This document shows, in pieces, positions 31,490 to 37,881 of a stretch of 51,396 nucleotides of DNA. Positions within the stretch are counted from its first letter, which is position 1. Each line of letters starts with the position of its first letter. The DNA comes from an uncultured Ruminococcus sp. (GTDB lineage: Bacteria > Bacillota > Clostridia > Oscillospirales > Ruminococcaceae), in contig CAMWYX010000014.1 in assembly GCA_947178575.1 (NCBI GenBank), positions 1 to 51,396 of the forward strand, read 5' to 3'. The translations under genes and the position numbers were made by a program. The notes under the pieces were generated by a model. That model saw nothing but the letters and a program-made list of their open reading frames with translations. It had not been told where the DNA came from and made no database searches.

Positions 31490-32176
31490 ATGGACGGTCT
31501 TTCTGAAAGACTTATGGAAGAAATGGAAAACAAAACCGCATTTACTATCCCTTTGTTCGGTGGAATACCCGTTCCCGATTCATGCGTCGTGACATGGATA
31601 ATCATGGGCGTGCTTGTTATACTCTCGATTATCCTTACTCATAACATGAAAAAAGTTCCCACCGGCAAGCAGTGCCTGCTGGAAATCGGTATGGAATGGA
31701 TGAATAAATTTTTCCTCGATGCTCTCGGACCTAAAGGGAAAAAATATCTGCCGGTTCTTGAAACTTTCCTGATTTATATCGGATTTTCAAATATAATCGG
31801 TATTTTCGGATTCGTTCCGCCAACTAAGGATATAAATGTAACCGCAGCTCTCGCTGTAATGGCTTCCATATTGATTCAGGTCACGGCAATTATCGAAAAA
31901 GGAGGCAAGGGCTGGCTCAAGGGCTTTGCGCACCCTATGGCGGTAATGATTCCCATGAATCTTCTGGAACTTATAACCCGACCTCTTTCAATGTGTATGC
32001 GTCTTTTCGGAAACGTACTCGGAGCATTCGTCGTTATGGAACTCATAAAGATGCTTATACCGGGCGGTCTGCCTGTACCGTTCAGCCTATATTTCGATAT
32101 ATTCGATGGCTGTATACAGGCTTATGTATTTGTTTTCCTTACATCTCTCTTTATGTCGGAAGCACTTGAGGACTAA
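31490..32176 (+). CDS. atpB: ATP synthase F0 subunit a
   Basis: 228 residues from the ATG at 31490, preceded by GAAGGAAGGTGTTGTT. The longer frame upstream lies in the structured leader. Membrane subunit forming the ion half-channels against the c-ring. About five helices, with the essential arginine R171 in MCMRLFGNVLGAF, and the C-terminal helix IQAYVFVFLTSLFM. First gene of the operon. No atpI homologue precedes it. Confidence 0.95.
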   Translation: MDGLSERLMEEMENKTAFTIPLFGGIPVPDSCVVTWIIMGVLVILSIILTHNMKKVPTGKQCLLEIGMEWMNKFFLDALGPKGKKYLPVLETFLIYIGFSNIIGIFGFVPPTKDINVTAALAVMASILIQVTAIIEKGGKGWLKGFAHPMAVMIPMNLLELITRPLSMCMRLFGNVLGAFVVMELIKMLIPGGLPVPFSLYFDIFDGCIQAYVFVFLTSLFMSEALED

Positions 32177-32198: not shown

Positions 32199-32240
32199 GA
32201 AAAAATCAATTTTCGTAACTAAAATATGGAGGTTTTTATC

Positions 32241-32468
32241 ATGGGTTCAGTCGCTTTAGGAGCAGCTATCGCCGTACTTACAGGAGCAGGCGCAGGTGTC
32301 GGAATAGGAGTAGCAACAGCAAAGGCTACAGAGGCTATCGCCCGTCAGCCGGAAGCAAAGGGTGATATAAGAGGTGCGATGCTTCTCGGCTGTGTACTTG
32401 CCGAGGCTACCGCTATCTACGGATTTGTTATCGCTCTGCTTATAATTCTTTTCCTCGGCGGAAAATGA
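32241..32468 (+). CDS. atpE: ATP synthase F0 subunit c
   Basis: 75 residues from the ATG at 32241 (TGGAGGTTTTTATC before it). Hairpin of two hydrophobic helices with the loop [10 protein letters not shown]. The ion-binding carboxylate is E55 in LAEATAIYG. Compared with Na-type c subunits, the helix-1 Gln is replaced by I22 and the Ser after the Glu by A56, so proton rather than sodium coupling is more likely. Predicted hairpins on both sides of the gene may raise its mRNA level relative to its neighbours. Confidence 0.95.
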
Positions 32469-32562: not shown

Positions 32563-33045
32563 ATGCTTGATTTTGAATTCTGGAGTATTTTCTGGACAGT
32601 ATTGAATGTCATTATACTTTTTGTACTGCTTAAAATATTCCTGTTTAAACCAATTAATAAAATGCTTGACGACAGAACACAATCTGTTCAGAAAGATATT
32701 GATGACGCCGAAAAGGCAAGGAAAGAAGCGGAGGAACTCAGACAGCAGTATTCCGATTCAATAAGCAATGCCAAGGAGGAAGCCGGTCAGATACTCCGAA
32801 AAGCTCACGAAACAGCTGAGGAGGAACACACCGCTATTATTCAGAAATCACACGATGAGGCAGATAAAATAATCAGCGCAGCCGGCGAAACCATAGAAAA
32901 CGAACGCAGACGCATTATACAGCAGGCACATTCACAGATTGCCGACCTCGCAATTGAAGCAGCTTCAAAGGTAGTCGGTGCTAATCTTGATGACGAAAAG
33001 AACCGCCGTCTCGTTGACGAGTTCCTTGCCGACAAGGAGGCGTAA
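32563..33045 (+). CDS. atpF: ATP synthase F0 subunit b
   Basis: 160 residues. One N-terminal membrane helix (about 5-28: [19 protein letters not shown]) with [10 protein letters not shown] after it, then a long charged coiled coil that forms the peripheral stalk, ending [24 protein letters not shown]. The start has ATCCGGAGGATTTTAAA. It ends 2 nt before the next gene, the delta-alpha fusion. Confidence 0.94.
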
Positions 33046-33047
33046 CG

Positions 33048-35072
33048 ATGAACAGTAAAAATAAATCGTTCCTCAGCGAACTCGTCCGGCTCAATATAAA
33101 AAAAGAAGACATCGAAACCACAAAAGGTATATTTTCCGCCTGTCCCGATGTCAGACTGACATTGGAAAATCCACTCGTTACTTCTGACGAAAAAAGAAAT
33201 ATCATAAAACAGATTTTCCCGAAAAGCCTTGAACGTCCTATAATTAATGCTGTCAAATCCGGTATTGCAGATTCTCTCGACGAAATATTCGAGGCTTATG
33301 AAGATATTCTGCTTGAAAAAGAAGGAAGTATCAAAGCTGTTGTCCGCTATGTCACTCCTCTTACAGAATCACAGCAGGCTGAACTGCGAAAGTTTATAAA
33401 AGAAAAATTCAACAAGGACGACGTTGAAATCGAATACCGCAAAGACCCCGATATTATAGGCGGATTCATACTCAATGCCGGCGATGTCGAATTTGACCGG
33501 AGTTTCCGTTCAAGTCTCAGGTCAATGCATACAACACTTAAACAAAAAGCAGTTGAGGCTGTCGGAACAAAAGACGGTAACGTAAAGTCCGGAGATATTA
33601 TATCAATACTCAAAACAGAAGTACGTGATTTCGATGTGAAATCAGGCGTTTCCGAAACAGGATTCATTACACGTCTCGGCGACGGAATCGCAAGCGTTCA
33701 TGGTATGAACGGCGTTATGTACGGCGAACTCGTTGAATTTGAAACCGGTATCCGTGGAATTGTCCAGAATCTTGAAGATGATTCCGTCGGCGTGGTTCTT
33801 CTCGGCGATGACCACGGTCTCACGGAAGGCTCGTCTGCTGTGCGTACCGGAAAACGTGCCGGAATCGGTGTGAGCAGTAAACTCCTCGGACGTGTTGTAG
33901 ATGCCCTCGGAACACCTATCGACGGACTCGGACAGATAACTCCCGAAGATTATTTTCCTATCGAGCGTGAAGCCCCCGGAGTTATTGAACGTAAATCCGT
34001 AAGCGTTCCGCTCCAGACAGGTATTCTCGCTATAGATTCAATGTTCCCAATAGGTCGTGGACAGCGTGAACTCATAATCGGCGACAGACAGACCGGTAAA
34101 ACATCAATCGCCGTTGATACTATCATAAATCAAAAGGGTCAGGACGTTATATGCGTATATGTCGCTATAGGTCAGAAATCCTCAACAGTCGCACAGGTTG
34201 TGAATACACTTAAAAAATACGGTGCTATGGAGTATTCAGTCGTGCTTTCGGCTTCCGCAAGCGAACCGGCTCCGTTTCAGTATATCGCACCGTATTCCGG
34301 AACGGCAATCGCCGAATACTTCATGTCAAAGGGAAAAGATGTTCTTATTGTATACGACGATTTGTCTAAACATGCCGTTGCATACCGTGCGATGTCTCTC
34401 CTGCTCCACCGTCCTCCCGGACGTGAAGCTTATCCTGGTGATGTTTTCTATCTTCATTCACGTCTGCTCGAACGTTCAAGCCGTCTCGATGATGAACACG
34501 GCGGAGGTTCACTCACCGCACTGCCGATAATCGAAACCCTTGCCGGCGATATATCAGCGTATATCCCTACCAATGTAATATCTATCACGGACGGTCAGAT
34601 TTTTCTCGAAAGCGAACTGTTCAATTCCGGTCAGCGTCCGGCGGTGAACTTCGGACTTTCCGTATCACGAGTAGGCGGAGCGGCTCAGACAAAGGCAATG
34701 AAAAAAGCCGCCGGAAATCTTCGTATCGACCTTGCACAATTCAAGGAAATGGAAATCTTCACGCAGTTCTCGTCAGAACTCGATACCGCAACTGCCGAAC
34801 TTCTCGAACACGGTCATATGCTTACGGAACTCTTAAAACAACCGCTTTATAATCCACGTCCGCACTATGAACAGGTAATACTTCTGTATGCCGCACAGCA
34901 CGGACTTTTCCGCCATGTAAAGCCGTCAGAAATGCAGGAGTATATAAGCGAACTTATGAGCTATATCAACAGTTACGGCACGGATATTATAGCAGAACTG
35001 GAAGAAAATCACGTACTGACTGACGAACTTGCCAAACGTATAGAACATATCGTTTCGGCATTCGAGGAATAG
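33048..35072 (+). CDS. atpA: ATP synthase F1 delta-alpha fusion protein (AtpH + AtpA in one frame)
   Basis: 674 residues with no stop between two complete subunits. Residues 1-168 are a full OSCP/delta subunit ([43 protein letters not shown], ending LKQKAVEA). After a short junction (172-180), residues about 181-674 are a full-length alpha subunit. It has an N-terminal helix ([12 protein letters not shown]), [31 protein letters not shown], Walker [10 protein letters not shown] (345-353), VYDDLSK and SVSRVGG. Between V179 and V197 no ATG, GTG or TTG lies in frame. A GGAG at 33591-33594 precedes ATT/ATA codons and may be a relic of the lost alpha start. Three alphas per F1 would carry three deltas unless cleaved. 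A sequencing error at the junction seems unlikely because both parts read cleanly. Confidence 0.93.
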
Positions 35073-35081
35073 GGTGAGATT

Positions 35082-35984
35082 ATGCCTAATATAAGAGAAA
35101 TACGTGAACGAATCGACAGTATACAGCAGATACTCAAAATAACAAATGCTATGTATCTCATATCATCATCAAAACTTAAAAAGGCCCGCAATGCACTTGA
35201 TTCCACAGAACCGTATTTTTACAAACTTCAGGAAACGATTGACAGCGTTCTTGAACATACTCCGCATATCAGGCAGATGTATTTCGACAGGCGTTTAGAT
35301 ATTCCGCCCGAAAAAAGGAAAAGAGGATATATTGTAATCACCGGCGACAAAGGTCTGTGCGGAAGCTATAATCAGACTATTCTGAAATATACGGATAAAG
35401 CACTCGATGAAGCCCCTGAACTCGATAACTGCTATCTTTTTGTTATGGGTCAGGTAGGGCGTATGTACTTCCAGAGACGTATAAAATCCGGAAAACAGGC
35501 TTATGTTGACGGCGAATTTCTGTATACTACACAGAATCCCACGCTTTACCGTGCAGCTGAAATCGCCGATATAGTTCTTGATAAATTCAAGAAAAAAGAA
35601 CTCGATGAAGTATGGCTGTTATATACAAATATGGTTTCGTCAAATGTTCAGGAAGCACGTAAACTACAGCTTCTTCCGTTTGAACGCCGTCATCTTGGAA
35701 AATCAGAAGATGGAACGCTGAAAAAACTCCCTAAAGCTTCATTTGTTCCGTCGCCTGAAAAAGTTATGGATTACCTTATTCCGCAGTACGCAAAAGGAAT
35801 CATATACGGTGCAATGGTAGAAGCGTTCTGTTGTGAACAGCAATCACGCATGACCGCTATGGACGCAGCCACCAACAGCGCAAAGGATATGATTAAAGAA
35901 TTGTCGCTTCTTTACAACAGAGCAAGACAATCGGCTATAACTCAGGAAATAACCGAAGTCTGCGGAGGTGCAGTATCACTCTGA
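35082..35984 (+). CDS. atpG: ATP synthase F1 subunit gamma
   Basis: 300 residues. Central rotor shaft: N-terminal helix PNIREIRERIDSIQQILKIT, the GDKGLCGSYN motif in the middle, and C-terminal helix ending ITQEITEVCGGAVSL, which reaches into the alpha3-beta3 core. Length is normal. The ATG is preceded by AATAGGGTGAGATT, 9 nt after the fusion gene. An 84-nt gap with its own ribosome binding site separates it from atpD. Confidence 0.96.
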   Translation: MPNIREIRERIDSIQQILKITNAMYLISSSKLKKARNALDSTEPYFYKLQETIDSVLEHTPHIRQMYFDRRLDIPPEKRKRGYIVITGDKGLCGSYNQTILKYTDKALDEAPELDNCYLFVMGQVGRMYFQRRIKSGKQAYVDGEFLYTTQNPTLYRAAEIADIVLDKFKKKELDEVWLLYTNMVSSNVQEARKLQLLPFERRHLGKSEDGTLKKLPKASFVPSPEKVMDYLIPQYAKGIIYGAMVEAFCCEQQSRMTAMDAATNSAKDMIKELSLLYNRARQSAITQEITEVCGGAVSL

Positions 35985-36068: not shown

Positions 36069-37466
<1,398 letters not shown>

Positions 37467-37470
37467 TATT

Positions 37471-37881
37471 ATGAGCAGAACTTTTCATCTGGAAATAATT
37501 GCCTCAGACCGTATATTCTTTCAGGGCGAATGCGAACATCTTGTTATAACAGCTATTGACGGACTTCTCGGAATCCTTGCCGGTCATGAACCACTTGTAA
37601 CTTCTCTCCCGACCGGTGAACTTAAATATATGACTGACGGCGAATGGCATTACGCCGCAATTTCAGAGGGTTTTATCGAAGTAATGCCCGACAGGGCGGT
37701 TATTCTTGCCGATTCGTGCGAGCTTCCCGAGGAAATCGATATTAAACGTGCGGAAGAAGCCAGAGAACGGGCTGAGGAAATGCTCCGCCAAAAGCAGGGC
37801 ATACGGGAATACTATGAAACACAGGCTGCACTCAACCGTGCAATCAACAGACTTAAAATCTCACAGAAAAAATTCAGGTGA
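37471..37881 (+). CDS. atpC: ATP synthase F1 subunit epsilon
   Basis: 136 residues. N-terminal beta-sandwich (FHLEIIASDRIFFQGECEHL, GLLGILAGHEPLVTSLPTG, AISEGFIEVMPDRAVILAD) and C-terminal two-helix domain (IDIKRAEEARERAEEM). It lies on the rotor and can inhibit hydrolysis. It starts 4 nt after atpD and ends 4 nt before the unknown gene. Confidence 0.95.
   Translation: MSRTFHLEIIASDRIFFQGECEHLVITAIDGLLGILAGHEPLVTSLPTGELKYMTDGEWHYAAISEGFIEVMPDRAVILADSCELPEEIDIKRAEEARERAEEMLRQKQGIREYYETQAALNRAINRLKISQKKFR

Follow-up and report, generated by a model that had tools for sequence, protein, structure and literature searches.

The F1 head of ATP synthase contains the delta subunit once and the alpha subunit three times, and F-type enzymes are as a rule taken to have only one peripheral stalk. 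The locus described here raises the question of what becomes of this arrangement when both subunits are encoded by one gene. It lies in the window, that is, the whole 51,396-nucleotide stretch of DNA analysed (contig CAMWYX010000014.1 of an uncultured Ruminococcus sp.), where a frame of 674 codons at positions 33048-35072 of the forward strand encodes delta followed by alpha. An earlier note drew attention to the fusion and to the stoichiometry problem that it creates. Both stand: there is no stop or frameshift at the delta-alpha junction, the two halves have their Pfam and TIGR00962 matches, and with a 1:1 ratio of delta to alpha in the coding, each F1 should receive three deltas if the linker stays intact. 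Taken as a whole, the best explanation, to which we give about even chances, is that only the fused chain would be made, that each F1 would carry three deltas and that at least part of the enzyme population would have more than one stalk. If this is true, extra side stalks could change the ion flow needed per ATP. The matter bears on whether the delta N-terminal domain (NTD) really restricts stalk number and on whether the stator, in addition to the c-ring, serves to tune the ion/ATP ratio, and the full-length fusion provides the missing comparison between unfused and NTD-less designs. As Ruminococcus, with cultured members such as R. flavefaciens, encodes three deltas per F1 head, the natural use of several stalks is directly testable.

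The fused frame and its operon

The operon lies on the forward strand, has the order a, c, b, fused delta-alpha, gamma, beta, epsilon and is ordinary apart from the fusion. Upstream of the fused gene (atpHA) are atpB for subunit a (31490-32176, 228 aa, with the ATG at 31490 picked by eye; NF004486, run on the residues from 31499, 311.4 bits, cut-off 272), atpE for subunit c (32226-32468, 80 aa; TIGR01260, 60.3 bits, cut-off 43.95) and atpF for subunit b (32563-33045, 160 aa; TIGR01144, 105 bits, cut-off 65.5). Downstream are atpG for gamma (35082-35984, 300 aa; TIGR01146, 267.8 bits), atpD for beta (36069-37466, 465 aa; TIGR01039, 806.4 bits) and atpC for epsilon (37471-37881, 136 aa; TIGR01216, 95.5 bits). 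The ATG of the fused frame lies seven bases past a Shine-Dalgarno (SD) sequence, AAGGAGG (33034-33040), and two bases past the stop codon of b.

The delta part comprises the NTD (residues 1-91, 33048-33320) and the C-terminal domain (CTD) with the last helix (residues 92-174, 33321-33569). It is followed by a linker of residues 175-180 (33570-33587) and by alpha (residues 181-674, 33588-35069), whose N-terminal helix is kept. The Pfam OSCP/delta profile PF00213 matches residues 19-164 (profile positions 23-172 of 172, 95.6 bits against a cut-off of 22.3); its first 22 positions are unaligned, yet a helix is modelled at residues 3-14. Pfam alpha domains fall on residues 201-268, 325-540 and 547-672, and TIGR00962 (atpA) covers residues 179-673 with 747.6 bits against a cut-off of 484.45 (profile positions 2-498 of 503). 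In the second of two AF2 models, which is of moderate quality and weaker in the NTD (mean pLDDT 71.8, pTM 0.63), six helices occupy residues 3-91, the CTD with its last helix residues 95-174 and the alpha N-terminal helix residues 181-194, with a gap between the two helices at 175-180. The bounds given in the earlier note (delta 1-168, alpha about 181-674, a linker of about ten residues) were thus right to within a few residues. The delta NTD has a pLDDT of 52-73 in this model and of about 80 in the first, which was built from 54 similar sequences and is poor outside the NTD (mean pLDDT 52.4). The second model carries no information on assembly.

Fusion of delta to another subunit of ATP synthase is known from mycobacteria. 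There the partner is b, whereas in Ruminococcus b has its own gene at 32563-33045 (recognised by TIGR01144), so that a b-delta fusion is rejected; the NCBIfam profile NF009961, 'subunit B/delta', matches this b weakly. An alternate (N-type) F1F0 ATPase is likewise rejected, as TIGR03324 (606.7 against 750.5) and TIGR03305 (586.1 against 752) both stay below their cut-offs. The source genome, which is 90.9% complete, has one PF00213 match and four matches to PF00006, namely the fused alpha, the beta of the same operon and a second pair. This pair (L053 and L055 on contig C16 of G000; frames of 599 and 465 aa) looks like the A and B subunits of an A/V-type ATPase, judged from identities of 27-30% to the beta and alpha of F-type enzymes.

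Conservation of the fusion

The delta-alpha fusion is a genuine and conserved coding feature. With residues 1-200 as the query, a protein search returned 798 relatives; among the 120 listed, all have delta and alpha Pfam domains and 118 are 671-674 aa long, the other two being shorter. The best 80 of 112 relatives found in a scan of genome contigs comprise 77 records titled Ruminococcus, R. flavefaciens FD-1, 007c, ATCC 19208 and MA2007 among them, two titled Alistipes and one titled Clostridiales. All 80 of these named loci read through from delta into alpha, with an early end at 577 aa in L096 and with L098 and L139 running off their contigs. Since they had been picked by likeness to the fused form, a sample of 120 genomes of the genus was drawn as a less biased set. 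A delta match is present in 115 of these genomes and the fused frame in 111 of the 115. The frame is at least 670 aa long in 108 of the 111; it measures 577 aa in G888, 420 aa in G916 and 545 aa in G891, where it stands at a contig edge with only the end of delta present. A separate delta alone (180-183 aa) occurs in four of the 115 genomes and a separate delta together with the fused one in nine, all 13 being known from delta matches alone. One member of the genus combines an ordinary delta with a fused delta-alpha and has yet another delta match, a weak one (G921:C19:34967-35251), in a 758-aa frame that is possibly a b'-delta-alpha chain.

In ten isolate genomes of R. flavefaciens the fused frame supplies the only delta and the only F-type alpha found. 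Besides this alpha, PF00006 gives a single beta per genome and a pair that looks A/V-type from frame length and place. The FD-1 strain has the fused gene on two contigs. Pairwise omega values (NG86, 203 pairs of fused loci) are 0.171 for the delta NTD, 0.062 for the delta CTD (residues 91-165), 0.260 for the linker and 0.041 for both the alpha N-terminal helix and the rest of alpha. Both delta domains and the alpha N-terminal helix, which normally binds delta, are therefore under purifying selection and not kept by chance. Nothing at the source frame points to an assembly error, the one MAG contig judged chimeric being L201 (see below), and an artefact is ruled out by the 80 of 80 loci, the ten isolates and the 111 of 115 genomes of the genus. 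With purifying selection added, the chance that the frame is an assembly error or a pseudogene is negligible.

One chain, a cut chain or a second start

A permanent fusion in the protein is quite probable. The ribosome would then make the fused chain only, and each F1, with its three alphas, would carry three deltas. The earlier note saw three ways around this outcome, namely cleavage, internal initiation and a remodelled stator. The last has gained outside support from an engineered enzyme described below, internal initiation finds no support in the DNA, and cleavage is left as an improbable alternative.

Ribosomes starting inside the frame could supply free alpha on top of the fused chain, and an in-frame ATG does lie within the last delta helix at many loci. 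A canonical start codon is not conserved near the junction, however. In 16 of 74 loci (the source frame and 73 named ones) there is no ATG, GTG or TTG in the 34 codons from 25 before to 8 after the start of the alpha N-terminal helix. An SD tetramer stands at the right distance from three of the 92 internal candidates near that helix; before the delta-alpha start itself it is present in 75 of 76 loci. Left out of the set used here and for omega were L121, L126, L141 and L150, which had no start by the rule applied, and the short L096, L127 and L139. Internal initiation is thus rejected as the main route and has become very improbable, the counts covering canonical start codons. Rather less far-fetched, though still improbable, is a cut in the linker after translation that would release alpha and delta, with the surplus delta degraded. 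The linker is short, lies between two helices in the AF2 model and varies in sequence and length among the aligned loci, and cleavage of the alpha subunit does occur in Euglenozoa. Against this, no outstanding linker motif is seen by eye in the alignments, two of every three deltas would be wasted, and in the NTD-less and b'-deltaCTD-alpha relatives a cut would leave odd pieces.

Comparison with engineered and natural delta-alpha fusions

The earlier note knew of no described delta-alpha fusion, and here it is out of date. According to Ueno et al. (Nat Commun 2025, PMC12229609), FoF1 of Bacillus PS3 was engineered by removing the delta NTD and fusing the delta CTD to alpha. This enzyme takes up to three b2 stalks and three a subunits and reaches an H+/ATP ratio of 5.8; triple-stalk particles are rare, and SDS-PAGE gives two stalks on average even in this NTD-less enzyme. 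The delta NTD, on the symmetry axis, is said to restrict the number of stalks to one. The same authors name natural NTD-less delta-alpha fusions from Acidaminococcus fermentans and under UniProt G4Q3K6 and A0A1I2C5T3. The PS3 construct (PDB 9JC1) and the Ruminococcus protein are alike in that the C-terminus of delta is joined through a short linker to the N-terminus of alpha (without its Met in 9JC1). Residues 2-571 of chain 9jc1_I align with residues 93-667 of the Ruminococcus protein in one stretch across the junction, and 9jc1 chains hold ranks 1-3 in a Foldseek search with the AF2 model. VIA-align aligned mostly residues 200-674 and hardly tested residues 1-199, and 9jc1 is absent among the 50 rows listed; the placement of delta relative to alpha in the model is therefore given no weight as evidence.

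The two proteins differ in that delta residues 2-104 and the C-terminal domain of epsilon are missing from the construct, whereas Ruminococcus keeps the whole delta and an epsilon of 136 aa. The natural fusions named by Ueno et al. share with Ruminococcus a delta-alpha gene fusion in the atp operon and, as described, are set apart by the absence of their NTD. Of the traits of an NTD-less multi-stalk F-ATPase, the Ruminococcus frame has the in-frame fusion of CTD and alpha. The NTD is present at residues 1-91, and the protein is for that reason not classed as an NTD-less delta-alpha member. The absence of a separate delta, a trait of the engineered enzyme, is seen in the source genome and in the ten isolates, while nine of the 115 genomes of the genus carry both forms. 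A literature search of partial coverage turned up one paper on delta-alpha fusion, PMC12229609, which describes the only demonstrated multi-stalk F-type enzyme found in that search, the engineered one, and no description of a full-length delta-alpha fusion was found; b'-delta-alpha chains and tandem delta CTDs were not found with the weak terms used. In a tblastn search of plasmids (557 records), the matches listed reach at most 66% identity, and delta and alpha are separate genes wherever both are annotated. The delta-alpha fusion as such is thus already published (2025, NTD-less), and what appears to be new is the full-length form.

Number of stator stalks

The Ruminococcus frame can be read as a version of the multi-stalk design in which delta has its full length, since it has the same delta-alpha fusion with the NTD kept. 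By analogy with the engineered homologue, each alpha N-terminus would hold its own delta CTD as a docking site for a b dimer, and as many as three b2 stalks, every one with its a subunit, could attach. The central axis would have room for a single delta NTD, and its two counterparts would be displaced. Several stalks would raise the ion/ATP ratio, an advantage for a fermenting organism whose ion-motive force is low. The number of stalks is the part of this explanation held with least confidence, and the chance of more than one stalk, taken by itself, appears to be somewhat short of even or at best even. The fuller proposal is that Ruminococcus builds an F-type ATP synthase in which all three deltas are tethered and two or three stalks are functional, every stalk having an a subunit of its own, even though the NTDs are retained. 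Its frame would be the middle step of a path from separate genes through full fusion to NTD loss that recurs in gut Clostridia, other lineages having taken the way of a tandem CTD or of b'-delta-alpha. This we regard as a tentative proposal, with perhaps one chance in three of holding as it stands.

The main rival keeps the three deltas and has one stalk. All three alphas would carry delta, the single axial NTD would let just one delta take the b dimer, and the fusion would be an assembly aid or a tolerated accident. The six-helix NTD in the model, held under purifying selection (omega 0.171), speaks for this arrangement, as does the restriction of stalks to one that Ueno et al. ascribe to the NTD (PMC12229609), which counts equally against several stalks. 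So does the finding that E. coli delta touches three alpha N-termini in distinct orientations (PMC5214741). Several stalks are further counted against by the separate delta, found alone in four and beside the fused one in nine of the 115 genus members, and present in full length in 10 of the 13 genomes of another fusion-bearing genus, that of L034. The rarity of triple-stalk particles in the engineered enzyme also weighs against them, and a cut in the linker would take away the argument for them. On the other side, the CTD is more constrained than the NTD in Ruminococcus, and related lineages arrive at several delta CTDs by other routes, namely an NTD-less fusion, a b'-deltaCTD-alpha chain or a tandem CTD. 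These forms count for several stalks, and NTD-less fusions or two-CTD forms are harder to explain if the extra CTDs are idle. On balance we think a single stalk beside three tethered deltas rather unlikely, though not by far.

The rates of divergence bear on the same point. The NTD/CTD divergence ratio is 3.98 in the Ruminococcus fusions (2.2-5.0 by bin), against 1.20 in their unfused relatives (1.38-1.39 in bins) and 1.28 in the other genus with full fusions. A deeper unfused set gives 1.13 and 1.02 (fused 2.94), values that are near saturation, so that the comparison of 3.98 with 1.20 is the fairer one. This signal fits NTDs that are displaced and partly idle or a CTD that has gained importance, in Ruminococcus only.

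Evolution of the fusion within the order

In a midpoint-rooted tree of the alpha domain (81 rows, with L007, L025 and L046 left out as short or weak), the 17 Ruminococcus fusions form one clade (100/100) that joins the unfused L047 and L048 at 100/94. The full fusions L035 and L036 lie within another, otherwise unfused clade, and the pair L034 and L037 lies elsewhere, as does a group of L056, L057 and other NTD-less fusions. The fusion appears to be of repeated origin in the order, with about five events (the b' clade included) if there were no reversals; fission is also possible, and there are 10 label changes in all.

The sister genus is unfused, with no delta frame longer than 268 aa in 16 genomes. 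The earlier note had taken separate atpH and atpA genes in close relatives, with an indel at the junction, as grounds to doubt the fusion. Unfused relatives do occur here, but with a stop present and alpha in a frame of its own, and their state looks ancestral. In six of the 16 genomes (L209-L213, 259-268 aa, and G450) the delta frame has a second CTD match, and the GGF motif is kept in both CTD copies of the five tandem frames read directly. A tandem-CTD delta beside a separate alpha is possibly a two-stalk delta. L073, from another family, has two delta CTD profile matches and blast matches, and the motif sought did not match it.

Full-length and NTD-less fusions stand side by side in the genus of L034, where seven of 13 genomes have full-length frames (652-679 aa) and six have NTD-less ones (606-620 aa); in G462, one of the latter, the profile match extends into a TAG as well. 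The NTD-less rows group together (98/94) within a larger clade (100/100) that also holds six full-length rows, and by eye some of their N-termini resemble remnants of the last NTD helix. This fits an order of fusion first and NTD loss second, the full-length rows standing at the base without firm branching. One of the seven full-length frames, L201 (G463:C163, a MAG contig of 4392 bp), has a delta like that of L199 and an alpha like that of Ruminococcus and is likely a chimera. It was kept in the tree just described and is not counted as a lineage.

Wider distribution and other delta architectures

Delta-bearing frames of at least 560 aa occur in 15 of 148 genomes sampled from the family and in at least 39 of 295 from the order, and 14 of 14 order frames that were fetched hold delta and alpha parts in a single frame. 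Across the phylum, at least 13 of 398 genomes, the source genome included, have a junction-crossing frame of at least 560 aa without a stop. Two from outside the order were read, one full-length (L219) and one NTD-less (L220). Most of the other phylum rows listed as crossing the junction do so with at least one stop in the way, which is what unfused genes should show.

Eight frames of 737-784 aa (L045, L060, L063, L065, L066, L067, L069 and L071) encode b'-deltaCTD-alpha chains, carried by other families of the order and by one member of the same family (listed with P0121). The delta CTD is fused to alpha as in Ruminococcus, with an extra b-like stretch at the N-terminus and no NTD seen, and on the alpha tree these chains form one clade (100/100) apart from Ruminococcus. 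In L067, Pfam finds PF00430, PF00213 and alpha; a protein search with it gave at least 204 relatives from 7,994 candidates, and among the 120 listed 116 are 731-765 aa long. The frame L045:4897-7146, which adjoins a separate b gene, exemplifies the layout of a membrane-helix-like and b-like N-terminus, a delta CTD and a whole alpha; the alpha of such chains is predicted to be membrane-anchored. Epsilon is encoded by frames of 86-110 aa in the b'-delta-alpha operons of L060, L063, L066, L069 and L071, which suggests loss of its C-terminal domain there, and by one of 131 aa in that of L067.

Two further layouts were seen. A 681-aa frame (L061:4523-6565) joins two tandem delta CTDs to one alpha. 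Stand-alone delta CTD frames of 73-76 aa lie between b and alpha at L058:4649-4867, which was checked with Pfam, L070:4502-4723 and L072:5175-5402, and a few more such frames of 74-78 aa occur in the order sample.
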